From positions 1 to 53,087 of the forward strand of contig JAPPII010000065.1 of assembly GCA_028820845.1 (NCBI GenBank): 53,087 nucleotides of DNA, in the 5' to 3' direction. This document shows, piece after piece, positions 38,000-53,087 of the stretch. Within the stretch, counting starts at the first letter, position 1; the number at the start of each line of letters is the position of its first letter. The notes under the pieces were generated by a model, which saw only the letters and a list, made by a program, of their open reading frames with translations, was not told where the DNA came from and did no database searches. This DNA is from Candidatus Poribacteria bacterium (GTDB lineage: Bacteria; Poribacteria; WGA-4E; WGA-3G). The translations under genes were made by a program, and so were the position numbers.

Positions 38000-39400
38000 T
38001 TAAATCTCAAGCTGCACAAAAACGAGATACACACCCGACATCAGGACCGCCAGAAATAGCACCAACAGCAGTAAATCCATTGCTGCGGTGTTGAAGTCTT
38101 TGCTTAGGTTGAGCGTATCCTTAAATTTAGGGATCGCTTCTGGACTGACAGGTTTCTGCGACATCCCTTCTTGAATTCCGATAACGTGAAGACTCTCCGG
38201 GTCTGCTCTATCGGTATCAATGACGAATTCGCGGTATTCACGAGCATACCGCTGCACATTCTCAATAAATTGCAAATGCCGTTCAAATCCAGTGCTAGCA
38301 AAAGATTCAAAGAGGCGTTGAACGATTGCTGTGGGTGAGATGCGGGTTATCGCCCGCGCCTGTTTCCCCTGTTTAATCTGCTGCTTCAAGTACGCCTCAT
38401 TGAAACGTTCGTGTTCTTCTGCTTCCGTGGTAACATACTCGCCAAGCACGCGCACCGATGGCGTAGTTTGTGAGTCTCCATACTTATCTTGGTATACCTC
38501 ACGCGCTTCGTCCGCCATTTGGATGCGCTGCTCCCAAAATTTCATATATGCCACCGGCACCGAGGTGCGACTGCCAATAGACGCTAACGTATTCGGCATA
38601 AATATTACAAAACTTACCCAAATCAACAATAGAACCACAAGGCTCACACCACTCTCCCTCGCCACTGCGGAGATGAGGAGACCGAGAGCGATAAACAGGC
38701 AGACGTAGAGGATAACGATACCATACAAAACACCTAAACGTCTCCATGCTTCAGCATTGAGTTGGACTGTCTCTGAGGTAGAGATGAGGAGTAGGTTCAT
38801 CAACACTGCAATTGCAAACGGAATATTAATGCTGATGAATGCCCCTAAAAATTTGCCTATCAATACCGTGTGTCGTGGAATTGGGTTTGCCAAGGTCAGC
38901 CGCAATGTGCCGCGTTCCAGTTCACCAGAGATTGCGTCAAAAGTGAACAGAATCGCGACAAAGCTCAGCACATAACCGACGATGAACGCCCAATCCAGAG
39001 TGGTGAAATCAGGCCGGATATCCCGTAGATTCGGTGTCTCTTGTGGGTATCCGATTCGCCAAACCGGTCTCGCGTTGGCGATGTGGCGAACGAAATTACG
39101 CCCAATAGCATGCTTGGGTAGAAATGCCTCATCGCCTTCCGCACAGAAACGGAGGGGTGAGGGTGCTTTATGGAGGTCTCCAGGTCCTTCAGTCGCGAGG
39201 CGGTATAAACTGGTGCTACGTGCCTCTAACGTCTTTATAGCATCAGCAGCAGCGTTGTGATATGCTTGTGTCCGCGCCGGATGTTCACGCAAATGCACAA
39301 CAGCATTGGTTAGCATCAATACCAGAAGCAGAACAGTTGCTAATGCGAAACGTAGGCTATTCAGGTTGTCGTAGATTTCACGTTTTGCAATATGCCACAT
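38000..39400 (-). CDS. ABC-2/DUF3526-type permease, type B, copy 5 (last of array)
   Basis: The 466-aa protein starts MWHIAKREIYDN; the preceding GTG frame is overlap with the gene before it and is left out. Like all B types it has a helix at about 17-36, an outside domain with the PSPLRFCAEG motif, helices near 140, 185, 215 and 245, a long second outside domain (about 265-435) and a final helix. Its coupling-helix motif is SGELERGTLRLTL, against SGERERGTLRLML in most siblings. It ends LEI (GAGATT) where the other B genes end EV (GAGGT), matching the fact that no gene follows for which a ribosome site is needed. Confidence 0.87.
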   Translation of the reverse strand: MWHIAKREIYDNLNSLRFALATVLLLVLMLTNAVVHLREHPARTQAYHNAAADAIKTLEARSTSLYRLATEGPGDLHKAPSPLRFCAEGDEAFLPKHAIGRNFVRHIANARPVWRIGYPQETPNLRDIRPDFTTLDWAFIVGYVLSFVAILFTFDAISGELERGTLRLTLANPIPRHTVLIGKFLGAFISINIPFAIAVLMNLLLISTSETVQLNAEAWRRLGVLYGIVILYVCLFIALGLLISAVARESGVSLVVLLLIWVSFVIFMPNTLASIGSRTSVPVAYMKFWEQRIQMADEAREVYQDKYGDSQTTPSVRVLGEYVTTEAEEHERFNEAYLKQQIKQGKQARAITRISPTAIVQRLFESFASTGFERHLQFIENVQRYAREYREFVIDTDRADPESLHVIGIQEGMSQKPVSPEAIPKFKDTLNLSKDFNTAAMDLLLLVLFLAVLMSGVYLVFVQLEI

Positions 39401-39404
39401 CAAC

Positions 39405-40898
39405 CTACACCTCACTTCTGATGAAAATGAGAACGATGCCCATAAACAGCGCGAGGTTACATATTAATAAGAGGAATAGGTCTGGCAATGCCCGTTTTGC
39501 ATTCAGCCGGACATCACTTCTCTCAAAGCTAAACTCGGGGAGTGTGCTCCAGTCTACTGCACCTTTATCAGCAATGAACCACTCTCGTGAAGCAAACGCC
39601 TCCTTCGCGTAGAAATAGTCAATTAGGATCCTCCGGTAACGTCGCGCCGCGTCGAAAAAATCTCTGAGACCCAAAAAGTCAGTTCCTACCCACGCCTGTG
39701 TTGCGGCATCGTAGATGCCCACGGGTGAAAGTTTCAACAGTGTTCTATCCATTTCGGCTTGTCGAACAAAAATGTCATCGAGTGCCTGCTTTTGGATGAA
39801 CCATGCTCTTTCTGCGGCATCGACAACCAACGGTTCAACATAAGCGTAGTATCTCTTGGCAATCGGGACATACTGTTCAAAGTCGGGAGAAATTTCCGAA
39901 ATCTCGCTCATATTTTCGAGATATGGCGAGAGGGTTACTGGATCTATGTATGCATCCGTGTAAATTCCTAACACTTCATTAAACCGAGAGTCCTTTCCGA
40001 CGACCCCCTCCCTTTCAAGGAACTTTTGTCGTTCCCTCTTATATTCGTCCACAATCTGTTGAATTTGATTTTTCGCGATCTTTGTGCGCGCCTGAATATC
40101 ACCGCCGGGGTTAACCGTTGCCCGAATCAGATTTGGGTACAAGAGTATCAGAAATCCCCATATAAACATTGCCAACATCAACGCCGTACCCGTTCTACGG
40201 GTCGTCGCAGAAATCAACAATCCGATGAGGTAGAACAGAGACAGATAAGCAAACGATGTAAGCACAATCCCGGCGATGCGGAGAAAATCAGCTGTTGATA
40301 ATGGAATCGAACCTGTTAGTAACAACAGCGCAAAGAGTAGGCTTAATAGCAATGGAACTAACAGACACGCCATCGCACTCATATATTTTGCAAGCAGGAT
40401 CTCTCCGCGTCCGACAGGCTGTGCGAGGACGAGACGTAACGTGCCGCGCTCACGTTCCCCCGCAATCGCATCGTAAGCGAATATCAATCCCATTAAACTT
40501 AAGACGACCTCAAAGACAAACACAATATCCATTGAAGAGAAGAAGGCGATAAATGGGTTATCTGTGCCGTGCATCTGAGCATCCCAGAGCGTCGGCACAA
40601 ATCCGTGCCAGATGCCGCTAAGGTTACCTAAGCGTTTATCTAACCCGACATTGAAAATGCTCAATGGATTCGGCGGACGGTCAACGAACAGGTACATCGT
40701 GGAATAGGTCTGCGCCTCCCGTAATTGCGCATCATGCATTTTGACGGCATCGTTGTAACTCTCCAACCGCTGTTTGTAATCTTGAATAAGCACAGCAGTA
40801 TTCGCAACAACGAGCAGCAATGTGATGAGCAGGACCGCTGCGAAACGAAAGGTCATCAGATTGTCAAGGAGTTCTCGGCGAATAAGTGTCATTAACAT
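39405..40898 (-). CDS. ABC-2/DUF3526-type permease, type A, copy 5
   Basis: The 497-aa protein starts MLMTLIRRELLDN. The A-type hallmarks are present: RPPNPLSIFNVGLDKRLGN in the first outside domain, GERERGTLRLVLAQPVGRG on the cytoplasmic side, and WFIADKGAVDWSTLPEFSF before the last helix. The second outside domain lacks the DPVPGE element of copies A1-A3 (it has EGVVGKDSRF), making A5 the most divergent A protein. It follows B4 after TAA-TAA-ATG in frame. Its SEV end (GAGGTG) lies just before the B5 start. Confidence 0.87.
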   Translation of the reverse strand: MLMTLIRRELLDNLMTFRFAAVLLITLLLVVANTAVLIQDYKQRLESYNDAVKMHDAQLREAQTYSTMYLFVDRPPNPLSIFNVGLDKRLGNLSGIWHGFVPTLWDAQMHGTDNPFIAFFSSMDIVFVFEVVLSLMGLIFAYDAIAGERERGTLRLVLAQPVGRGEILLAKYMSAMACLLVPLLLSLLFALLLLTGSIPLSTADFLRIAGIVLTSFAYLSLFYLIGLLISATTRRTGTALMLAMFIWGFLILLYPNLIRATVNPGGDIQARTKIAKNQIQQIVDEYKRERQKFLEREGVVGKDSRFNEVLGIYTDAYIDPVTLSPYLENMSEISEISPDFEQYVPIAKRYYAYVEPLVVDAAERAWFIQKQALDDIFVRQAEMDRTLLKLSPVGIYDAATQAWVGTDFLGLRDFFDAARRYRRILIDYFYAKEAFASREWFIADKGAVDWSTLPEFSFERSDVRLNAKRALPDLFLLLICNLALFMGIVLIFIRSEV

Positions 40899-40901
40899 TT
40901 A

Positions 40902-42344
40902 TTATACCTCGGCCCGCACAAACGCGAGATACGCTGCGGATAGAAGCACCATAACAAACAAAGCCAACAATAGTATCTCTATTGCTCTGTTATTGAGGTC
41001 TTGACTGAGGTCGAATGTATCTTCAAATTTCGGAACCGCCTCTGGGCTGACAGGTTTCTGGGACATGCCTTCACGAATGTTTATGATATGGCGGCTTTCA
41101 GGGTCCCCTCTATCCCTGTCAACGATGAATTCACGGAGCTGTCGGGCGTAGTGTTGTGTATTCTCCACAAATTGCAGGTGCCGCTCAAATCCGGTACCAG
41201 CAAACGCTTCAATCAGGTGCTGCAGAAGTGTAGTGGGTGAGATGCTGGTGATGGCGCGGGCGCGGTGCATCTGAGCACTCCGGTACTTTAATTGCTCTTC
41301 CTGCCAGCGTTCCCGTCTTTCAGCGTTTTCAGTGTAAAAATCGCTTTTTCCTCTTAACGTCCTGTCATCCAATTCATCCGACCAGATCCACTCATCGTAT
41401 TTATCCCATAGGTCCTCTTGAACTGGATTCCGCTGTTGCCAATATTTATTGAAGGACACGGCAGGTGAAAAGCTGCTCGCAATTGAAGCGAGGGTACTCG
41501 GCATAAAAGCGACAAAGGTTACCCACGTCAAAAGCAGTATCATCAGGCTCACCGCGCTCCGTTGTACACGCGTGGAGACTAATAACCCTAACGCCAGAAA
41601 GAGACTCGTATACAGAAGGGCGAGACAGAAAATGATACCTAAACGTCCATAAGCTTCTGTTGTTAGGTGAACAGTATTTGCGGTCGAAATCAACAAAAGG
41701 TTTACCAACACAGCAAGCGTGAGCGGTATACTAATACTGAGCAATGCCCCTAAAAATTTGCAGATAAGGACAGTGTGTCGGGGAATTGAATTGGCTAACA
41801 TCAATCGGAGTGTGCCACGCTCGCGTTCACCGGAGAAGGCATCAAAGGTGAACAAGAGTGCCAGTAGACTCAGGATGTAACCGATGATGAACGCCCAATC
41901 CACTTGTGAAACGTCCGGTCCAACGCTCTTGTTCTGGAGGTTGGCATCTGGGTACGACAGGGTCCAGACACCTTGGAGTACCACCTTCTCTTCATTTGAA
42001 TCGGGCACGGACATCGTCGCGAATACGTATGGTTCTTCTACTTTGATCGTATCTGGTAGGAGGGGACCCCCTCCGTTTGCACAGAAGTGAAGGGGAGACG
42101 GCTTTTTGTAGAAATTTCCCGGCCCGTATTGTGCCAGTGTATAAAGACTGTCCTCAGCGCGAGTCGTTAAGTGATTCAAAGATTCGGCGACAGCATCCCG
42201 ATATCGCTGGACATGTTTCGGATGCTCTCGGAGATGTCTAACGGCATTGGTTACCATCAGTGCCAGCAACAATACAGTTGTTAGAGCGAATCGGAGGCTA
42301 TTGAGGTTATCGTAGATTTCGCGTTTGGTAATATGCCAAATCAT
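40902..42344 (-). CDS. ABC-2/DUF3526-type permease, type B, copy 4
   Basis: The 480-aa protein starts MIWHITKREIYDN at the ATG two bases after the A4 stop (TAG-G-ATG). It is the longest B copy; extra length lies in the first outside domain (VFATMSVPDSNEEKVVLQGV region after PSPLHFCANG) and in a Trp-rich part of the second (QEDLWDKYDEWIWSDELDD). The cytoplasmic SGERERGTLRLMLANSIPRH motif is canonical. It ends AEV (GAGGTA). Confidence 0.88.
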   Translation of the reverse strand: MIWHITKREIYDNLNSLRFALTTVLLLALMVTNAVRHLREHPKHVQRYRDAVAESLNHLTTRAEDSLYTLAQYGPGNFYKKPSPLHFCANGGGPLLPDTIKVEEPYVFATMSVPDSNEEKVVLQGVWTLSYPDANLQNKSVGPDVSQVDWAFIIGYILSLLALLFTFDAFSGERERGTLRLMLANSIPRHTVLICKFLGALLSISIPLTLAVLVNLLLISTANTVHLTTEAYGRLGIIFCLALLYTSLFLALGLLVSTRVQRSAVSLMILLLTWVTFVAFMPSTLASIASSFSPAVSFNKYWQQRNPVQEDLWDKYDEWIWSDELDDRTLRGKSDFYTENAERRERWQEEQLKYRSAQMHRARAITSISPTTLLQHLIEAFAGTGFERHLQFVENTQHYARQLREFIVDRDRGDPESRHIINIREGMSQKPVSPEAVPKFEDTFDLSQDLNNRAIEILLLALFVMVLLSAAYLAFVRAEV

Positions 42345-42345
42345 C

Positions 42346-43872
42346 CTACACCTCACTCCTGACGAAAATCAAAAATATAATTGTGAACAGGATTAAGTTA
42401 ATCATCAATAGGAAGAATAAATCCGGTAACGCTCGCTTTGCATTGATGTCTATACCACTCTTCTGAAAGGAAAACTGCGGGAGTGCGTCCCAGTCAGCCG
42501 TGCCTTGATCGGCAGCAAACCATTGTCGTGATTCAAATATCTTTTCGTCATAGAAATAGTCAAGGACTGCTTGTCGGTAACGTTGAACAGCGTAGAAAAA
42601 GTCTTGAATACCCGCTAAATCGGTGCCTGCCCAGGCTTCCGTTGCCGCGTCATACAACCCGACGGGTGAAAATTTCAGTAAGGTGCGACCGAGATTTGCG
42701 GGTTGGATATAGATGGCCTCTAAGGCGGGTTTACGAACAAGCCACGTGCGTTGGACGGTATTAACAGTCTCTCTATTGTAGAAGCGGTAATAATTCTGTA
42801 CAAGTGGGACCTGTGGCTCAGATTCTGCTCCAATTTTTCCGGCGTAGAATCCGGTTTGGTGGAAATAGAGTAATATTGCCGGTTTGTCTTCACGCGGACT
42901 GAAGGAGTATTCAACGCCCTTGAGGTCAAATGCCCCACTTTCGCCGTTACGCGATAAGGGACCTAAGACGGGATCATTGCGTAGAAACTGCTTGCGTTCT
43001 CTCTCCCATTCTTCCCACATCTGTTTGATTTGATGATAGGCGGAGGTTTGCGTCTCCGGTTGCGGGGTGGTTTCAACAGCGGTAAGAATCAGGTTTGGAT
43101 ACACGAGGACTAAGAATCCCCAGACAAACATGCAAAGCATGAGTGCGGTACTGGTTCGACGCGTCATCGCGGAGATGCACATACCGATGAGGTAGAACAG
43201 CGATAGATAAAGGAGTGATGTGAGGACAATCCCACCGATGCGAAGGAAATCATCCGTATTCAAGAAAATCGCAGTCGATGTCGTCAGCAAGATAATCGAC
43301 AGGAGAAGGCTGATTAGTAAAGGCGCAAGTAGACAGAGCATCGCGCTGATGTACTTGGCAAATAGGATGGACCCGCGTCGGATGGGGTGCGTCAGCACGA
43401 GGCGTAAGGTGCCGCGTTCCCGTTCACCAGCGAGCGCATCGTAAGCGAAAATCAGGGCGAGCAGACTTAGGACCCCTTGAAAAACAAGCGCGATGTCAAT
43501 TGAAGTGAAGAGGTTGAGAAACGGGTTATTCGCCCCGTGCTTCCTTGCATCCCAAATAGTTGGCACAAACCCGTGGTATACATTAACTTTGTTACCTACC
43601 CGCTTGTCTAATCCCAAATTGAAAATGCTCAATGGGTTCGGGGAACGATGAGCAACTAACCCTCCAAGGTAATACGAATAGGTTTTCTCCTCGCGTAATT
43701 CCCGGTAACTTTCCTGAGTAGCCGTATTGTAAGCCGTCAGTCGCTGTTCATAGTCCTTGAGGAGTACAACGGTATTCGCAACGACAAGCAAGAGTGTAAT
43801 GAAAACAGCTGCGGCAAATCGAAATGTCATCAGATTGTCGAGGAGTTCTCGACGGATAAGTGTGAATAGCAT
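42346..43872 (-). CDS. ABC-2/DUF3526-type permease, type A, copy 4
   Basis: The 508-aa protein starts MLFTLIRRELLDN. It carries SPNPLSIFNLGLDKRVGN (a Ser where the others have Pro), GERERGTLRLVLTHPIRRG and a long second outside domain with DPVLGPLSRNGESGAFD in place of DPVPGE. The last helix is ILFTIIFLIFVRSEV. It starts after TAA-TAG-ATG following B3, in the same frame as B3. Confidence 0.88.
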   Translation of the reverse strand: MLFTLIRRELLDNLMTFRFAAAVFITLLLVVANTVVLLKDYEQRLTAYNTATQESYRELREEKTYSYYLGGLVAHRSPNPLSIFNLGLDKRVGNKVNVYHGFVPTIWDARKHGANNPFLNLFTSIDIALVFQGVLSLLALIFAYDALAGERERGTLRLVLTHPIRRGSILFAKYISAMLCLLAPLLISLLLSIILLTTSTAIFLNTDDFLRIGGIVLTSLLYLSLFYLIGMCISAMTRRTSTALMLCMFVWGFLVLVYPNLILTAVETTPQPETQTSAYHQIKQMWEEWERERKQFLRNDPVLGPLSRNGESGAFDLKGVEYSFSPREDKPAILLYFHQTGFYAGKIGAESEPQVPLVQNYYRFYNRETVNTVQRTWLVRKPALEAIYIQPANLGRTLLKFSPVGLYDAATEAWAGTDLAGIQDFFYAVQRYRQAVLDYFYDEKIFESRQWFAADQGTADWDALPQFSFQKSGIDINAKRALPDLFFLLMINLILFTIIFLIFVRSEV

Positions 43873-43875
43873 CTA

Positions 43876-45282
43876 TTATACCTCAACGCGCACAAAGGCG
43901 AGATACGCGCCTGAGAAAAAAACAAGGAAAAATAGAACCAATAGTAATAAATCCACTGCCGCAGTATTGAAATCGCGACTGAGGCTGAGTGTATCTTCAA
44001 ATTTCGGTATTGCCTCTGGATTGATAGGTTTCTGTGACATTCCTTCACGGACACCAATGATATGAGGGCTGTCGGGGTCTGCCCTATCCATATCTCCGAC
44101 GAATTCTCGGTATTCGCGGGCGTAGCGTTGCACGTTCTCCACGAATTGTCGGTGCCGTTCAAACCCCGTTCCAGCAAACGCTTCAAGAAGGTGTTGGACA
44201 ATCGCAACGGGCGAAATGCGGGTGACGGAACGCGCCAGTTGGATTTGAGCATGTTCCTGGTTTAAGTGTTCGTGGCTCAAACGTTCCCGCTGTGCTGCTT
44301 CGTCAGTGACATACTCGCCTCCTAACTGTATTTTTTTCGCTGACAACTCATCTGTGTTTTGCAAACGAGTCTCGTAGGTGTCTTTGAGTTCATTATGAAG
44401 TTGATTCCGGCGTTCAAAGAATTCATCATAAGTCATCGGTGTTGAAAATCCGCTGGCAATGGAGGCGAGCGTACTCGGCATAAAAACGACAAAAGTTACC
44501 CACATCAACAGGAGTGTCACAAGACTCGCCGCGTTTTGCTGTACACGCGACGATACTAACAGACCTAACGCAAGAAATAGACACAGGTACAGAAGCGCGA
44601 TAGAAAAAATAATACCTAAACGGCTCCACGCTTCGGTGCTGAGTTGGACATCGTTAGACGTGGAAATTACTAACAGGTTCATCAACACAGAAAGCGTAAA
44701 CGGGACGCTAATACTTATCAAGGCGCCTAAAAACTTGCCAAGTAGCACAGTATGACGTGGGACCGAGTTAGCTAACATCAAACGCAGTGTGCCGCGTTCA
44801 CGTTCACCGGAGATCGAATCAAAGGTGAACAAGATCGCGATGAGGCTCAAAACGTACCCAATCACAAACCCCCAATCTACTTTGATAGTGTCTGGACGAA
44901 TATTTTTTGAATTGAGCGTCGCGGGTAGATATAACAGCTGCCAGAAACCCCTTAAGTCATCGGTGGTCCAAAAGACAAATTCGCCATTGACTCTATCTGA
45001 CAAAAAAATATCGCCCCCCTCTGCACAGAAATGGAGTGGAGACGGCTTTTTGTAAAGATTTCCGGGACCCCATTGCGCAATTTCATATAAATCTGTTCGA
45101 GCCCTTAAGCGGTTCAGCGATTCTGTGACGGCATCATGATATTTCTGTATCCGCACAGGATGTTCCCGGAGATGCACAATAGCATTGGTCAGCATCAAAC
45201 CGAAAAGCAACACTGTTGCCAAAGCAAAGCGGAGGCTATTGAGATTGTCGTAGAGTTCGCGTTTTGCGATATGCCAAATCAT
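43876..45282 (-). CDS. ABC-2/DUF3526-type permease, type B, copy 3
   Basis: The 468-aa protein starts MIWHIAKRELYDN. PSPLHFCAEGGDIFLSD marks the first outside domain and SGERERGTLRLMLANSVPRH the coupling helix. The C-terminal outside region has the FAGTGFERHRQFVENVQRYA stretch shared by B types. A 154-base fold-back element precedes it, and GAAAAAATG at its start leaves no obvious ribosome site. Confidence 0.88.
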   Translation of the reverse strand: MIWHIAKRELYDNLNSLRFALATVLLFGLMLTNAIVHLREHPVRIQKYHDAVTESLNRLRARTDLYEIAQWGPGNLYKKPSPLHFCAEGGDIFLSDRVNGEFVFWTTDDLRGFWQLLYLPATLNSKNIRPDTIKVDWGFVIGYVLSLIAILFTFDSISGERERGTLRLMLANSVPRHTVLLGKFLGALISISVPFTLSVLMNLLVISTSNDVQLSTEAWSRLGIIFSIALLYLCLFLALGLLVSSRVQQNAASLVTLLLMWVTFVVFMPSTLASIASGFSTPMTYDEFFERRNQLHNELKDTYETRLQNTDELSAKKIQLGGEYVTDEAAQRERLSHEHLNQEHAQIQLARSVTRISPVAIVQHLLEAFAGTGFERHRQFVENVQRYAREYREFVGDMDRADPDSPHIIGVREGMSQKPINPEAIPKFEDTLSLSRDFNTAAVDLLLLVLFFLVFFSGAYLAFVRVEV

Positions 45283-45286
45283 TTTT

Positions 45287-45440
45287 TCGGCTGTCGGCTG
45301 TCAGCAATCAGCTTTCAGCAAAGATAGGTTGTGCCTTATGAGTAATTGTAATCAGCAGTTTGTAGCAGGAACTAAACGATCAACTTTGCAAGCGTCTCTT
45401 AACTGACCGCTGAGAGCGCAGCGACCTGACAGCTGACAGC
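45287..45440. repeat. Fold-back element at the A3/B3 joint
   Basis: Terminal arms GGCTGTCGGCTGTCAGC (plus strand, left) and GACCTGACAGCTGACAGCC (right) are inverted copies. The inside includes GAGTAATTGTAATCAGC and CGCTGAGAGCGCAGCG. It replaces the 1-4 base joints found elsewhere in the array. Confidence 0.55.
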
Positions 45441-45444
45441 CACT

Positions 45445-46950
45445 TTACACTTCACTTCTTTGGAAAACCAGAAGTATCACTATAAAGAGCAAGAGGTTCA
45501 TTATTAGTAACAAGAGTAAATCTGGTAGTGCTCGTTCTACGTTTATTCTCACATCGCTTCTCTGAAAAGAAAACCGAGGTAAATTGTCCCAATCCACCAT
45601 CTCCTTGTCTGCAGAAAACCATTGCCGAGAGCCGAATGCGTTTTTATCGTAGTAATAGTCAACCACAGTCCGTCGATACTTTCGCGCTGCCTCGAAAAAA
45701 TCTCTGAGTCCGGACAGGTCCGTGCCTGCCCACGCCTGCGTTGCAGCATCGTACATCCCGACGGGTGAAAACCTCAAAAGGATTCGATCAACTATCGCTG
45801 GCTGAACGAAGACAGTATCAAGTGCTGTTTTTCGGATAAGCCATGTTCGCTCTGCGGCATCAACGCTTCGTGGTACAAGGAAGCGGTAATAATCCTGCGC
45901 GTGTGGCACCTGAGGTTCGGATTCCTCATTAAGCTCCAAAACGTGTGCGCCAGCACCGTAATGATAATAGAAGACCGATGCATCCTCGTAAAAGTATTCA
46001 TAGGCGAAACCTGACCGTACCATACCAAAACTCGGATCCTCCCCTGGAACCGGATCATTCGCAAGGAAGTGCTTTCGTTCTCTATCGAGTTCTTCCCATA
46101 TCTGTTTAATTTGATTGAAGGTGGAGACCATCCGCGCTTGCGAAGTTTGTGGAGGGGCAATCGCGGCAATCACCACATTCGGATATACCAACACCGAAAA
46201 TCCCCAGACAAACATGGCAAGCATCAGCGCGGTACCGGTTCTGGTGGTTGCTGCTGAAATCAGCATGCCGATAAGGTAGAATACCGACAGATATGAAATT
46301 GAACTGAAAATAATCCCACCAATCCGGAGAAAATCACCAATGCTCAGGGAAATAGTGGTAGATGTCATCAGCAAAATCATTGCAAGGAGCAGACTCATTA
46401 GCAGCGGTACCAGTAGACATGTCATCGCACTGATGTATTTCGCAAGCAGGATTTGCCCACGACTGACCGAATGCGTTAGAACCAGACGCAGTGTCCCGCG
46501 CTCGCGTTCTCCTGCAAGGGCATCGTAAGCGAAAATCAGTGCTATTAGGCTCAGGACTATCTCAAAGATAAAGACAATATCGATCGAAGAGAAAAGGTTG
46601 AGAAGTGGATTCGTTGTCCCGAGCATATCAGCATCCCACAGCGTCGGTACATAACTATGAGATATCCAAGTTTCGCTCTCTAACTGTTTATCTAACCCTA
46701 CATTGAAGATACTCAAAGGATTTGGAGGACGGGCAACGTCCAATTTTCCACCCGAATAGGTTTTTCTTTCCCGCAATTGCTGATGATGCGTTTTGAGAGC
46801 AGTATTGTAAGCTGCCAACCGCCGCTCATAATCTTTGATGAGTACAGCGGTATTTGCAACCACAAGCAAGAGCATAATCAAGACGGCTGCGGCGAAACGG
46901 AATGTCATTAGGTTGTCAAGGAGTTCTCGGCGAATAAGTGTGAGTAGCAT
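45445..46950 (-). CDS. ABC-2/DUF3526-type permease, type A, copy 3
   Basis: The 501-aa protein starts MLLTLIRRELLDN. It has RPPNPLSIFNVGLDKQLES, GERERGTLRLVLTHSVSRG, and DPVPGEDPSFGM followed by a Tyr-rich stretch (YEYFYEDASVFYYHYG) in the second outside domain. Its SEV end uses GAAGTG rather than GAGGTG and is followed by the fold-back element, so it no longer serves as a ribosome site. Confidence 0.88.
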   Translation of the reverse strand: MLLTLIRRELLDNLMTFRFAAAVLIMLLLVVANTAVLIKDYERRLAAYNTALKTHHQQLRERKTYSGGKLDVARPPNPLSIFNVGLDKQLESETWISHSYVPTLWDADMLGTTNPLLNLFSSIDIVFIFEIVLSLIALIFAYDALAGERERGTLRLVLTHSVSRGQILLAKYISAMTCLLVPLLMSLLLAMILLMTSTTISLSIGDFLRIGGIIFSSISYLSVFYLIGMLISAATTRTGTALMLAMFVWGFSVLVYPNVVIAAIAPPQTSQARMVSTFNQIKQIWEELDRERKHFLANDPVPGEDPSFGMVRSGFAYEYFYEDASVFYYHYGAGAHVLELNEESEPQVPHAQDYYRFLVPRSVDAAERTWLIRKTALDTVFVQPAIVDRILLRFSPVGMYDAATQAWAGTDLSGLRDFFEAARKYRRTVVDYYYDKNAFGSRQWFSADKEMVDWDNLPRFSFQRSDVRINVERALPDLLLLLIMNLLLFIVILLVFQRSEV

Positions 46951-46953
46951 CTA

Positions 46954-48354
46954 TTATACCTCCACACGCACAAAGGCAAGATAGGCTCCCGACAGAAGCA
47001 CCACAACAAATAGCGTCAGCAACAGCAAATCCATCGCTGCAGCGTTGAAATCTTTGCTCAGACTCAGTGTATCTTCAAATTTTGGTATTGCCTCTGGACT
47101 AACGGGTTTCTTAGACATGCCTTCCGGAACGCCGATCAGATGGAGGCTTTCAGGATCTCCCCTATCGGTGTCAACGATGAATACGTGATATTGGCGACCG
47201 TAGTGCTGGGCGTTTTCCAAGAATTGCAGATGCCGCTCAAAACCGGTGCCAGCAAAGGATTCGAGAAGCTGCTGGACAATCGCAGCCGGTGAGATACGGG
47301 TAACGGCGCGCGCCTGTTGAACTTGTTCGACCTGCTGCATTAAGCGTTCTTCAATCAGACGTTCTTGCGCTGCTTTGTCTTCGATAACAAACTGGCTTCC
47401 TACCTGCATATCCCGCAGCTTGGATACACCTGTTTTGTGAAAGTACGCCTCCCAAAGTTTATTATTGATTTGCTTTCGACGCACCTGAAGTTCATCAGAG
47501 GACATTGGAGAGGAAAAACCACTCGCGATCGAGGCAAGAATGTTGGGCATAAAAACGACAAAGGTGACCCACGCCAGCAAAAGTATCACGAGGCTCACTG
47601 CACTCTGCCGCGCACGCGCCGATACCAATAGACCTAATACCAGAAAAAGACTCGTATACAAGATCGCAATAAAGCAGATGATACCTAAACGTCCCCACGC
47701 CTCTGCACCAAGGTGGAGGGTTCTAGCTGTGGAAATCAGCAGTAGGTTCATCAATACCGCAATCCCAAACGGGATACTCACACTAATCAACGCGCCTAAG
47801 AACTTGCCCATAAGAACGGTATGCCGTGGAATTGAATTCGCCAACATCAAACGCAGCGTGCCTCGCTCACGTTCACCGGAAATAGAGTCGAAGGTGAACA
47901 AGAGCGCGACGAGACTCAAAGCATAGCCGATTATAAACCCCCAGTCCACTTTGGTGACATCTGGACGAATATTTGTCAAATTGTGGGGCACAGCAGGATA
48001 CTGCATTCGCCAGAAACTACTTAGATTATTGCTGTCCCAGAAGTGATAGGGTGTCTCAACGGTTCCTGATAAAAAAGTATCGCGCCCTTCTGCGCAGAAA
48101 TGAAGCGGAGATGGCTTTTTGTAAAGTTTTCCAGGTCCCTTTCGTGCGAGGTCATATAAACTGTCTGCACGTGCCTCTAAGATATTGCGCGCCTCTACAA
48201 CAAAAGAGAGGTGCCTCTGTATTCTCGCGGGATGCTCACGGAGATGCACAACGGCGTTGGTCAGCATCAAGCCTAACAACAACACTGTTGTGAGGGCAAA
48301 TCTGAGACTATTGAGATTATCATAGAGTTCGCGTTTTGCGATATACCACATCAT
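46954..48354 (-). CDS. ABC-2/DUF3526-type permease, type B, copy 2
   Basis: The 466-aa protein starts MMWYIAKRELYDN directly after the A2 stop (TAA-A-ATG). PSPLHFCAEGRDTFLSG and SGERERGTLRLMLANSIPRH are present. The second outside domain is the shortest of the B set. It ends VEV (GAGGTA), 3 bases plus ATG before A3. Confidence 0.88.
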   Translation of the reverse strand: MMWYIAKRELYDNLNSLRFALTTVLLLGLMLTNAVVHLREHPARIQRHLSFVVEARNILEARADSLYDLARKGPGKLYKKPSPLHFCAEGRDTFLSGTVETPYHFWDSNNLSSFWRMQYPAVPHNLTNIRPDVTKVDWGFIIGYALSLVALLFTFDSISGERERGTLRLMLANSIPRHTVLMGKFLGALISVSIPFGIAVLMNLLLISTARTLHLGAEAWGRLGIICFIAILYTSLFLVLGLLVSARARQSAVSLVILLLAWVTFVVFMPNILASIASGFSSPMSSDELQVRRKQINNKLWEAYFHKTGVSKLRDMQVGSQFVIEDKAAQERLIEERLMQQVEQVQQARAVTRISPAAIVQQLLESFAGTGFERHLQFLENAQHYGRQYHVFIVDTDRGDPESLHLIGVPEGMSKKPVSPEAIPKFEDTLSLSKDFNAAAMDLLLLTLFVVVLLSGAYLAFVRVEV

Positions 48355-48355
48355 T

Positions 48356-49876
48356 TTATACTTCGCTCTTGACGAAAATCAGAAATATTATTGTAAACAG
48401 AACTATGTTGATTGTTAGCAATAAGAATAAATCTGGTAACGCTCGTTTTGCATTTGTGCCTATCCTACTTCTTTGAAAAGAAAACTGGGGCAAAGTGTCC
48501 CAGGCCACGCCTGTTTTGTCTGGAGCAAACCACGAGCGAGACTTAAACACATCTCCATCGTGTAGATAGGCAATAACTGTTCGTTGGTACTGCCGAACTG
48601 CCTCAAAAAAATCTTGGAGACCTTTTAAATCCGTGCCTGCCCAGGCCTGTGTTGCAGCGTCGTACATTCCAACTGGCGAAAGTTTCAATAGCGTTCTATC
48701 AACGAATACCGGTTTCACAAAAATGTCATCGAGTGCTTGCTTTCGGATGAGCCACGTTTGGTCTGCTGTATCAATGATCTGAGGTCCGAGGAAACCATAG
48801 TAATTTTGCGCGTGTGGGACCCGCGGTAGCGATTCCGCATTGAGTTCGCCTTTATAGTAGAGCACTGTCCAATAGTAATAGGATAACGTCAATCGATTTT
48901 CGCTGAATCCATCTCCAGCACCCCATCCGTTAGAACTGTTTATGTCAAACATTGGGTCTTCTCCGGGGACAGGGTCGGTAGCAAGGAAGTGTTTGCGTTT
49001 TCTATCGAATTCCTCCCATATTTGCTTAATTTGACTGAGAGCGGATGCCCCACGTTCTGCTGAGGGGTCTTGTGGAGTTGTTGTGGTAAGAACCACGTTT
49101 GGATAGACAAGCACCAAAAATCCCCAAACAAAGATGGATAGCATAAGCGCAGTACTTGTCCTACCAGTCATCGCTGAAACCAGCAGCCCGATGAGGTAAA
49201 ACACCGATAGATAAGTGACGGAGGCAAAAATAATCCCACCGATACAGAGGAAATCATCGGTTGTTAGGTAAATTGAAGCGGATGTCGTTAGCAAAAGCAT
49301 CGCGAGCAGCAGACTCATCAGCAAAGGCATAAGTAGACACACCATCGCGCTGAGATATTTCGCAAGTAGAATATAACCGCGCTGGACAGGATTCGTTAAA
49401 ATAAGACGTAATGTGCCCGCCTCATATTCCCCCGCAAGCGCATCATAGGCAAATATAAGTGCCAGTAAACTGAGGACAACCTCAAAAATAAAAACAATAT
49501 CAATTGACGAGAAAATGTTAAGAAACGAATTGTCTGAGCTATTCATGCCGGCATCCCAAAGTGACGGAACAAGCCAGTAAGATACCCGAATTTCGTTCCC
49601 GAGTCGCTTATCTAATCCAACATTGAATATACTCAATGGATTGGGAGGTCTATCGATATCCAATCTGGATATCCCCGGCGAATAGGCGGGTCTTTTGTAT
49701 AGTTCTTGCCGATGAGTCTCCACAGAGGTGTTATAGTCTGCCAAACGCCGCTCGTAATCTTGGATGAGTACAGCAGTAACAGCAACAACCAGCAATAGGG
49801 TGATAAAGACAGCCGCAGCAAAACGGAATGTCATTAGGTTATCGAGTATTTCTCTGCGGATAAGTGTTAGTAGCAT
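48356..49876 (-). CDS. ABC-2/DUF3526-type permease, type A, copy 2
   Basis: The 506-aa protein starts MLLTLIRREILDN. It differs from the other A copies at the coupling helix: GEYEAGTLRLILTNPVQRG instead of GERERGTLRLVL, which loses two arginines where the ATPase would bind. DPVPGEDPMFDINSSNGWG marks the second outside domain. Its SEV end is GAAGTA with TAA-A-ATG to B2, a weak ribosome site. Confidence 0.88.
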   Translation of the reverse strand: MLLTLIRREILDNLMTFRFAAAVFITLLLVVAVTAVLIQDYERRLADYNTSVETHRQELYKRPAYSPGISRLDIDRPPNPLSIFNVGLDKRLGNEIRVSYWLVPSLWDAGMNSSDNSFLNIFSSIDIVFIFEVVLSLLALIFAYDALAGEYEAGTLRLILTNPVQRGYILLAKYLSAMVCLLMPLLMSLLLAMLLLTTSASIYLTTDDFLCIGGIIFASVTYLSVFYLIGLLVSAMTGRTSTALMLSIFVWGFLVLVYPNVVLTTTTPQDPSAERGASALSQIKQIWEEFDRKRKHFLATDPVPGEDPMFDINSSNGWGAGDGFSENRLTLSYYYWTVLYYKGELNAESLPRVPHAQNYYGFLGPQIIDTADQTWLIRKQALDDIFVKPVFVDRTLLKLSPVGMYDAATQAWAGTDLKGLQDFFEAVRQYQRTVIAYLHDGDVFKSRSWFAPDKTGVAWDTLPQFSFQRSRIGTNAKRALPDLFLLLTINIVLFTIIFLIFVKSEV

Positions 49877-49879
49877 CTG

Positions 49880-51301
49880 TTATACCTCAACGCGCACAAA
49901 CGCAAGATACGCCCCGGATAAAAGCACAACGAAAAACAGTGCTAATAACAATAAATCCATCATCGCAGCGTTAAAATCGCGACTGAGGCTCAGTGTGTCT
50001 TTAAATTTGGGAATCGCCTCTGGCCTGACAGGTTTCTGTGACATACCTTCGCGAACACCGAAAACGTGGAGGCTCGTTGGGTCTGCCTTATCGGTTTCAG
50101 CAATGAATACTCGAAATTGCTGGGCGTGAGATTTAATGTTGTCTAAAAATTGCAAATGCCGTTCAAAACCGGTTCCAGCGAAGGACTCAAGAAGGTGTTG
50201 GAAAATGGCAACAGGTGAAATACGGGTGATGGCGCGTGCGCGATTCATTTGAGAAATCTGTTGATTTAATTGCTCCGCGTGTAACCGCTCCTGTTGCTCA
50301 GCATCTCTGGTGACAATCTCACCTCCCAATCGTATCTTCTCCCTCACATCCTCAGGTATGTCATCCGAATAAGAGTAGTATTTATCCCAAAGTTCATCCA
50401 GTTCATCTTCAAATTGCGAAGAGCGTTTCCGAAATTCATCATAGGACATAGGTGGCGATGAAAGACCATTGGCAATAGAAGCGAGTGTACTCGGCATGAA
50501 AACCACAAGAACTGTCCAAATCAATAGAAGCACGACAAGACTGACGGCACTTCGTTGTACACGCGTCGACACCAATAAACCTAACCCAAGAAACAGGCAC
50601 GTGTATAGAAGTGCAATAAAATAGATAATACCTAAACGTCCCCACGCTTCCATATTGAGGTGAACGGCACTTGATGTGGAAATTATCAATAGGTTCATCA
50701 ACACGGCAAGCGTAAACGGGATACTGATGCTTATCAACGCTCCTAAAAACTTGCCAATGAGTACAGTGTGCCGTGGAATTGAATTCGCCAACATCAATCG
50801 TAATGTCCCGCGTTCACGTTCAGTGGAGATTGCGTCAAACGTGAACAACAGTGCGATGAGGCTTAAGACGTAGCCGATGATAAAACCCCAATCCAATTCG
50901 GTGACATTTGGACGGATATTATACAGATTGGGATTGGACGATGGATATGCCAGTATCCAGAAACTCTCCAGCGTGCCAGCACCCCATCGATGGTAGCTGC
51001 CCTGTGCATACCTTGATAAAAACGGCTCGCCGCCGTCTGCACAAAAACGGAGTGGAGACGGTTTTTTGTAAAGATTTCCAGGACCTTGCTCGGCGAGTTT
51101 ATACAGGCTGTCAGCGGCATAATTCGCTAAACGATTTTGATATCTGGTGACCCCGTCGCGATATTCTTGTATCCGTTTGGGATGCTCTCGGAGGTAAACA
51201 ACCGCATTCGTTAACATCAAACCCAGCAGCAGGACGGTTGTGAGAGCGAAGCGGAGGCTATTGAGATTGTCGTAGAGTTCGCGTTTTGTAATATGCCACA
51301 T
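49880..51301 (-). CDS. ABC-2/DUF3526-type permease, type B, copy 1
   Basis: From the ATG at 51301 the protein is 473 aa (MWHITKRELYDN). The 14 residues of the longer frame (Gln/Pro/Asn-rich) are translated repeat and are left out. PSPLRFCADGGEPFLSR is present. The coupling helix is STERERGTLRLML, with Ser-Thr in place of Ser-Gly. The second outside domain holds an acidic DELDELWDKYYSYSDDIPED stretch. A fold-back element lies just upstream, leaving no ribosome site. Confidence 0.88.
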   Translation of the reverse strand: MWHITKRELYDNLNSLRFALTTVLLLGLMLTNAVVYLREHPKRIQEYRDGVTRYQNRLANYAADSLYKLAEQGPGNLYKKPSPLRFCADGGEPFLSRYAQGSYHRWGAGTLESFWILAYPSSNPNLYNIRPNVTELDWGFIIGYVLSLIALLFTFDAISTERERGTLRLMLANSIPRHTVLIGKFLGALISISIPFTLAVLMNLLIISTSSAVHLNMEAWGRLGIIYFIALLYTCLFLGLGLLVSTRVQRSAVSLVVLLLIWTVLVVFMPSTLASIANGLSSPPMSYDEFRKRSSQFEDELDELWDKYYSYSDDIPEDVREKIRLGGEIVTRDAEQQERLHAEQLNQQISQMNRARAITRISPVAIFQHLLESFAGTGFERHLQFLDNIKSHAQQFRVFIAETDKADPTSLHVFGVREGMSQKPVRPEAIPKFKDTLSLSRDFNAAMMDLLLLALFFVVLLSGAYLAFVRVEV

Positions 51302-51440
51302 TGGTTGTTGGTTGTTAGTTATTGGTTGTTGGTTAAGAGCCACTCCGTAACAATCAACTACAGTTTGGAGTACTCCAAGAACTCACGAATTGTTACAAGT
51401 CCCCTCTTAACTTACAGCCTATAACCAACCACCAATAGCC
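51302..51440 (-). repeat. Fold-back element at the A1/B1 joint, copy 2 of the 84-225 element
   Basis: TTGGTTGTTGG-type arms face CCAACCACCAATAGCC arms. Inside are GTAACAAT/ATTGTTAC and a perfect TTGGAGTACTCCAA palindrome (about 51379-51392). An ATG lies at each edge (51442-51440 after the A1 stop, and 51301-51299 as the B1 start), which could be a 3-base target duplication or chance. Confidence 0.6.
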
Positions 51441-51443
51441 ATC

Positions 51444-52949
51444 CTACACTTCACTTTTGATGAAGATTAGAAATATTGCCATGAAAAGAATAACATTGAT
51501 TAGCAGCAATAGACAGACATCGGGTAATGCGCGTTTTGTATTTACGCCGATGTCGCTTCTTTTAAAACGGAATTGCGGCAGTCTGCTCCAATCGACTGCC
51601 CCTTGGTTGGCGGAAAACCATTGTTGTTCCCCAAAAGCCTCTTTGTCATAAAAATAGTTGATGACTCTTTGGCGATATTGACGCGCTGCATCGAAAAAAT
51701 CACGGATACCGTTCAAATCTGTGCCTGTCCAGGCTTGCGTTGCTGAGTCATAGATGCCCATGGGTGAGAGTTTCAGTAAGGTTTTATCAATACCTGCAGG
51801 TCGCACAAAGATATTTTCAAGTCCAGGTTTTCGGAGCAGCCATGTTTTCTCTGCATTACCGATAACGCGGGGTTCAAGAAAGCGGAAATAACCCTGAGCG
51901 TGTGGAACTTGTGACTCAGATTGCTCATTAATTTTGCCAATATTAAGGGTATTCTTGAGGTAAACATTTAATTTTGATGTGCGTTGTATAAGGTATTCAC
52001 TACTCCATCCGGATGCTCCAATACCAAACCACATGCTTTCGCCGGGAACAGGGTCATTGACGAGAAAATCCTTTCGTTCTCTGTCAAATTCTTCCCATAT
52101 CTGTTTCATCTGATTCGCGGTAGAATCAATTTGTGCGCGCGGCGGACTCGATGGCGACATCACGGCGAGAATCATGTTTGGATAAACCAACACCAGAAAT
52201 CCCCAGGCGAACATAGATAGCATGAGGGCGGTGCTGGTCCTACGAGATACCTCAGAAATCAGCATCCCAATGAGGTAAAACACCGATAGGTATACCAGCG
52301 ATGTTAGAACAATCCCACCAATGCGAAGAAAATCATCAGGTGAAAGCGAGAGGGAACGGTTGTTCGTTAGCAAAATCATCGCGAAGAGGAGACTTAACAG
52401 CAACGGCATAAGCAGACAGAGCATTGCACTGATGTATTTTGCAAGCAGAATGTGTCCACGCCTCACCGATTGTGCCAGAACAAGACGTAAGGTGCCGCGT
52501 TCGCGCTCACCAGCGAAAGCATCGTAGGCGAATAGCAGTGCTGTCAAGCTGAGGATAACCTCAAAGATGAAGACGATATCAATTGATGTGAAGATGTTAA
52601 GAAACGGGTTATCTGACCCGTGCATGGAAGCGTCCCAAAGTGTAGGTACAAAGGCGTGATAGATTGGAACTTGGTTTCCGAGTTGTTTATCAAATCCGGC
52701 GTTGAAGATACTCAGCGGATTCGGTGGACGATCTATATTCAATTCATAACCCGAATAGGCTTTGAACTCTTGGAGTTTATCCTGATGTGTTTTGAGAGCG
52801 GTGTTATAAGCTGCCAACCGCCGTTCATAATCCTGAATAAGCACAGCAGTATTTGCGACGACAAGCAAGAGCGTGATGAAGACGGCTGCGGCGAACCGGA
52901 AGGTCATCAGGTTATCGAGGAGTTCTCGACGAATGAGTGTGATCAGCAT
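51444..52949 (-). CDS. ABC-2/DUF3526-type permease, type A, copy 1 (first of array)
   Basis: From the ATG at 52949 (GGAGAG 8 bases upstream) the protein is 501 aa. Six membrane helices are expected: about 17-37, 122-142, 170-195, 207-230, 240-260 and 478-498. That puts two domains outside (about 38-118 and 262-477). RPPNPLSIFNAGFDKQLGN lies in the first. GERERGTLRLVLAQSVRRG, between helices 2 and 3, is the likely coupling helix that docks on an ATPase. ABC-2/DUF3526 permeases usually work as dimers with a separate ATPase, moving or releasing substrates at the inner membrane. Type A and B proteins probably pair. The substrate is unknown and no ATPase gene follows. Confidence 0.88.
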   Translation of the reverse strand: MLITLIRRELLDNLMTFRFAAAVFITLLLVVANTAVLIQDYERRLAAYNTALKTHQDKLQEFKAYSGYELNIDRPPNPLSIFNAGFDKQLGNQVPIYHAFVPTLWDASMHGSDNPFLNIFTSIDIVFIFEVILSLTALLFAYDAFAGERERGTLRLVLAQSVRRGHILLAKYISAMLCLLMPLLLSLLFAMILLTNNRSLSLSPDDFLRIGGIVLTSLVYLSVFYLIGMLISEVSRRTSTALMLSMFAWGFLVLVYPNMILAVMSPSSPPRAQIDSTANQMKQIWEEFDRERKDFLVNDPVPGESMWFGIGASGWSSEYLIQRTSKLNVYLKNTLNIGKINEQSESQVPHAQGYFRFLEPRVIGNAEKTWLLRKPGLENIFVRPAGIDKTLLKLSPMGIYDSATQAWTGTDLNGIRDFFDAARQYRQRVINYFYDKEAFGEQQWFSANQGAVDWSRLPQFRFKRSDIGVNTKRALPDVCLLLLINVILFMAIFLIFIKSEV

Positions 52950-53087
52950 CGGATTTTCTCTCCACAGGTTTAGGTATTTCAAACTTGCAGGGTTGAATAT
53001 AGATCGGTTTTAATACGGGACACTATTATAGTTTACGCAATAAGTAGTTTTGGACATAGGCAATTTCAGTTTTCTTAATGTTATCAC
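52950..53087 (-). promoter_or_regulatory. Upstream region of the permease array
   Basis: On the minus strand TATAAT (53030-53025) lies about 75 bases before the first array gene. I see no good -35 box 17 bases ahead of it. The array may therefore start here, or continue from genes beyond the window edge. Confidence 0.35.

Follow-up and report, generated by a model that had tools for sequence, protein, structure and literature searches.

A tandem array of five paired ABC-2 exporter permeases in a sponge-symbiont bacterium suggests a shared ATPase encoded elsewhere in the genome

Ten adjacent permease genes in Candidatus Poribacteria, a bacterial symbiont of sponges (genome 5.69 Mb in 125 contigs), form five two-gene units with no ATPase gene beside them, and are probably a set of interchangeable exporter cassettes, each of two chains, that a single shared ATPase drives. 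The two members of each unit co-evolve, and a near-single-copy ATPase gene on another contig co-occurs with such pairs and lies next to them in relatives. The data suggest that a single motor gene at another place in the genome powers the array and a dozen or more similar pumps.

Organization of the array

The window, that is the whole stretch of DNA analysed here (53,087 nucleotides), is an entire contig (C65), which ends 138 bp upstream of B1. The initial annotation described an alternating row of ten genes on the minus strand at 38000-52949, and this row is real. The adjacent open reading frames encode 466-508 aa, contain no internal stops, and alternate strictly in the transcription order B1 A1 B2 A2 B3 A3 B4 A4 B5 A5, with a B gene first. 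The features are listed below; each permease is an open reading frame matching PF12679 and DUF3526 (scores are given in the next section).

51444-52949, minus strand: B1 permease, first transcribed, B clade
51302-51443, minus strand: insert between B1 and A1, with inverted heptamer repeats similar to those between B3 and A3; comparable inserts at B-A junctions of relatives
49880-51343, minus strand: A1 permease, A clade
48356-49876, minus strand: B2 permease, B clade
46954-48354, minus strand: A2 permease, A clade; modelled, pLDDT 85.6
45445-46950, minus strand: B3 permease, B clade; modelled, pLDDT 87.1
45283-45444, minus strand: insert between B3 and A3 that carries inverted heptamer repeats; relatives have comparable inserts at their B-A junctions
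43876-45282, minus strand: A3 permease, A clade
42346-43872, minus strand: B4 permease, B clade
40902-42356, minus strand: A4 permease, A clade; shares 11 bp with the end of B4
39405-40898, minus strand: B5 permease, B clade
38000-39415, minus strand: A5 permease, last of the array, A clade; shares 11 bp with the end of B5
C10:69269-70000, minus strand: candidate ATPase, followed in its operon by genes for a NEW3-domain protein and then a TolC-type channel

B1 starts at the ATG at 52949, the TTG at 52982 being merely an in-frame start farther upstream. The true start of A1 is probably the ATG near 51301 (MWHITKRE), because the sequence upstream of it falls inside the repeat insert. The wide B-A gaps consist largely of such inserts, and those at the B-A junctions of relatives are similar to the ones in the window, yet different. 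For B2 to B5, a Shine-Dalgarno-like GAGGT lies within the last codons of the preceding A gene (GAGGTATAATAGATG or similar), which suggests translational coupling of the next B.

Two kinds of unusual gene were observed outside the array. A permease of 406 aa on C122 (L029:5651-6871) has the start of a B gene joined to the rest of an A gene, and looks like an in-frame B/A chimera or deletion. At L028:1573-4599, L146:8222-11170 and L022:1347-4340, ECF sigma factors fused to other domains (a BNR propeller, an S9 peptidase, an M61 peptidase with PDZ) stand beside permease genes. Literature searches on DUF3526 ABC transporter permeases, and on permeases with sigma factors in Poribacteria, found no papers.

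Family and predicted fold of the permeases

All ten proteins match PF12679 (ABC2_membrane_2) above the cut-off, with E-values from 1e-26 to 1e-37. All ten also match DUF3526 (PF12040), eight of them above the 25-bit cut-off, with B5 at 24.8 and B2 at 22.4 bits. B3 and A2 were not recognized by the GldF equivalog model TIGR03518: they score 27.6-32.5 bits against a curated cut-off of 288.5.

AlphaFold models, made for B3 and A2, contain six transmembrane helices. Besides a first outside domain they have a cytoplasmic loop that bears the GTLRL motif, and a long helical stalk on the outside joins TM5 to TM6. For these two proteins the models support the layout that had been proposed for all ten, namely an outside domain, a cytoplasmic motif, a long outside domain and a last helix. 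More than half of each modelled chain lies in the outside domains. The motif itself had been given as ERERGTLRL in every gene; the cytoplasmic GTLRL part holds, while the ERER part is variable. The motif reads (G/T)E(R/Y/L)E(R/A)GTLRL, as in GELERGTLRL of A5, GEYEAGTLRL of B2 and TERERGTLRL of A1.

The best match of solved structure is NosY (PDB 7o0y), over the membrane core, both in sequence (E 7e-11 for B3, 3e-6 for A2) and in Foldseek (E 3e-5 for B3, 8e-7 for A2, probability 1.00). Among the structure and sequence matches listed, the outside stalks have no clear match of their own. From sequence and models, we assign the array genes as ABC-2 (type V) exporter permeases, NosY/GldF-like.

Each B gene and the A gene downstream form a unit

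In a tree of 132 rows, A and B separate into two clades of 66 rows each with a support of 100, as had been predicted. The distance matrices of B and of the A directly downstream correlate strongly (r 0.91), compared with r 0.30 for A and the next B (54 cases). Over 114 array-clade pairs the correlation between partners is 0.90, and within-locus shuffles all gave 0.58 or less. We conclude that B-A is the unit, because each B co-evolves with the A directly downstream. The tight A-B spacing of 3-6 bp had suggested A-B as the unit, which the co-evolution rules out. The earlier proposal of a duplicated two-gene unit is borne out by the two clades and the strong co-evolution of B with A; the two chains would then physically form heterodimers.

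Position 1 (49880-52949) departs from most pairs in that the closest relative of B1 is not paired with the closest relative of A1, and a past exchange of partners is possible.

Conservation and age of the array

Among the paralogues in the window, the membrane and cytoplasmic core is 75-76% identical, compared with 47-57% for the outside domains, which agrees with the initial annotation that the outside parts differ most. Synonymous differences are near saturation in all regions (pS 0.67-0.75). Since the core is conserved at saturated synonymous sites, it is under purifying selection, with weaker constraint on the outside domains. We reject gene conversion as an explanation for the conservation of the core, given the same saturation and exact DNA matches of at most 40 bp between any two paralogues. 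Against the orthologues in a relative (G012), dN/dS is 0.04-0.10 in the core and 0.04-0.41 in the outside domains of the genes tested. The core therefore evolves more slowly, and the outside parts are under weaker purifying selection; no positive selection was seen on them. Between A and B, the cytoplasmic loop is 61% identical and the other regions 21-35%. In a separate observation, B3 (45445-46950) shows a dS of 0.13-0.21 to its G012 orthologue, compared with 0.47-1.51 for the other array genes tested, perhaps as a result of recent transfer or recombination.

A same-family array occurs at the syntenic place in all six relatives examined, and copy number in these genomes varies from three to six pairs per array: six in G029, five in G012, four in G018 and G005, three in G022 and G010. 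Four of them (G010, G012, G022, G029) have xanthine-dehydrogenase-like genes upstream and BCAT, HisF and MurJ on the other side; within the stretches fetched, G005 has the xanthine-dehydrogenase-like side and G018 the BCAT/HisF/MurJ side. The tree places array positions 2-5 in lineages common to species across the genus. The duplications are therefore old, and recent amplification is ruled out. The ten open frames agree with the initial view of a unit that was duplicated and kept intact, to which the age of the duplications is a refinement. The array is not an assembly artefact of a single pair, as the paralogues are too different (pS about 0.7, no exact DNA match longer than 40 bp) and it recurs in several other assemblies, including complete chromosomes.

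The variable number of pairs and the shortened chimera on C122 could also point to ordinary tandem duplication, in which the ATPase genes were lost or displaced and most copies are redundant or decaying. We regard this as the least probable of the explanations weighed here: all ten frames are open, no region of the tested genes has a dN/dS outside the range given above, positions 2-5 are conserved throughout the genus, and the co-evolution of partners persists.

In G012 and G029, the two relatives searched for RNA genes, a 16S rRNA gene and a tRNA-Ile(GAT) gene lie upstream of the array (L134:1-1353 and L136:11982-16483), and these stretches gave no match to 23S, so that the rRNA operon is possibly split. 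The break of the window contig upstream of B1 probably arose because 16S assembles poorly from metagenomes. One contig labelled Gammaproteobacteria (L131) carries a pair nested among Poribacteria sequences and is probably mis-binned.

No ATPase gene at the array

Permeases of ABC-2 exporters usually, though not necessarily, have their cognate ATPase encoded alongside, a trait that is absent here. No ATPase was found in the window contig, nor within the fetched flanks of the arrays in G005, G010, G012, G018, G022 and G029. Synteny in the relatives makes an ATPase gene just past the contig end unlikely. The complete chromosome of G029 has 28 strong PF12679 permeases. Of these, 22, among them all 12 of the array, lie at least 50 kb from any PF00005 ABC ATPase gene, and the remaining six lie within 8 kb of an ATPase of the type encoded on C10. 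Annotation by gene neighbourhood would miss such a motor.

A candidate shared ATPase

The candidate on C10 belongs to a type that is 88-97% identical across genus members, a degree of conservation that is not unique, since the neighbouring HisF is 96-98% identical. The nearest of the genome's own ATPases is 38% identical to it. One ATPase gene for many membrane components, the trait of shared-ATPase systems, is found here: genomes carry 0-2 copies of the C10-type ATPase (mean 1.1) and 4-24 array-type B genes (median 11), and the two copy numbers are not correlated (r 0.04). Outside the genus, all five genomes with array-type B carry the C10-type ATPase, compared with two of the 19 without, both of these being fragmentary matches (Fisher p 0.0005, phylogeny ignored). 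Two genomes with B have no match to it, and both are just 81-83% complete.

Array-clade pairs also adjoin this ATPase in relatives. At three loci (L084, L090, L095) a pair lies directly upstream of ATPase-NEW3-TolC, and at two loci in another family (L103 and L119, in G036 and G039) a pair is divergent from it; the ATPase-adjacent pairs of all five loci nest within the array clade. This gene order ties the ATPase family to array-type pairs in those relatives; that it serves every pair in the present genome is a further hypothesis.

The genome also encodes other orphan CcmA-type ATPases, at C3:16118-17089, C4:80694-81620 and, judged by context alone, on C22. As these genes have no evident permease partner alongside, the array pairs might be energised by C3 or C4, or by several such ATPases. 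We consider this unlikely. C3 occurs in nearly the whole class (55 of 60) and its distribution does not track the permeases; of the five genomes outside the genus that have B, four lack C4; and neither is associated with array-type B (Fisher p 1.0). The ATPase seen beside array-clade pairs in relatives is of the C10 type, not C3 or C4.

The absence of a local ATPase and the size of the outside domains would fit permeases that work ATPase-free, for example as periplasmic scaffolds or sensors that keep the ABC-2 fold. We consider this very unlikely, as no other region is as well conserved between A and B as the putative ATPase-docking loop, which is under purifying selection, and array-clade pairs share operons with an ATPase in relatives.

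Proposed mechanism

We therefore favour a common ATPase as the likely form of the ‘one engine’ proposed in the initial annotation, although it would be encoded on C10 and none is at the array. We hypothesize that the array, which includes no ATPase gene, provides five heterodimeric ABC-2 exporter membrane cassettes, each made of a B chain and the A chain encoded immediately after it. Beneath each pair would lie a homodimer of the shared ATPase, docked by the cytoplasmic loop that is conserved in A and B (GE.E.GTLRL...R..L..K); the high identity of this loop between A and B is expected if both chains face the same ATPase. The divergent outside stalks may select the substrate or meet periplasmic partners, and the TolC-type channel, also shared, is perhaps where the substrate goes next. 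That the ATPase is physically shared, that transport is outward and that the TolC channel is used are all parts of this model that we infer, as is the idea that different pairs export different ligands. We speculate, as a weak guess, that the substrates are peptides or peptide-like compounds, because peptidase genes adjoin some permease pairs elsewhere, among them the sigma factor genes with a fused S9 or M61 peptidase domain. For Poribacteria more widely, we lean slightly towards a single ATPase, with its NEW3 protein and TolC-type channel, powering 20-50 exchangeable two-chain exporter permeases.

Comparison with known systems

In NosDFY, the permease NosY (about 276 aa) forms homodimers and has a dedicated ATPase, NosF. 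The membrane core of the array A and B chains is like NosY in sequence and fold; the array differs in that its chains are longer (466-508 aa) and bear large stalks on the outside, each unit combines two different chains, and no ATPase is adjacent. Permeases with DUF3526 usually occur as one pair with one ATPase. The array has PF12679 in common with GldF and the ABC2_membrane_2 plus DUF3526 permeases in all ten proteins, but the GldF NCBIfam scores of B3 and A2 are far below the cut-off.

Shared ATPases are already known for importers; what is new here is an array that has no ATPase. In the literature searched, which covered few subscription papers, we found no ABC-2 exporter family sharing an ATPase on this scale. 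MsmK energises several carbohydrate-importer ABC membrane complexes (PMC4519317). The array would resemble it in having one ATPase for several membrane complexes, but its permeases are of the exporter-type ABC-2 kind and many more in number, and the sharing is predicted from genomic evidence.

In group II ECF transporters, interchangeable membrane components compete for one ATP-hydrolysing module (PMC7755397). These take up micronutrients by swapping substrate-binding S-components, whereas in the array the swap would concern entire two-chain permeases. If a single ATPase drives dozens of exporter permeases, export would be plug-in, and a new substrate would cost just a permease pair; loss or inhibition of the single ATPase is predicted to silence many transporters simultaneously. 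Such a system, in a phylum of uncultured sponge symbionts, would carry the shared-motor principle of importers over to ABC-2 exporters and would be an export counterpart of the group II ECF transporters.
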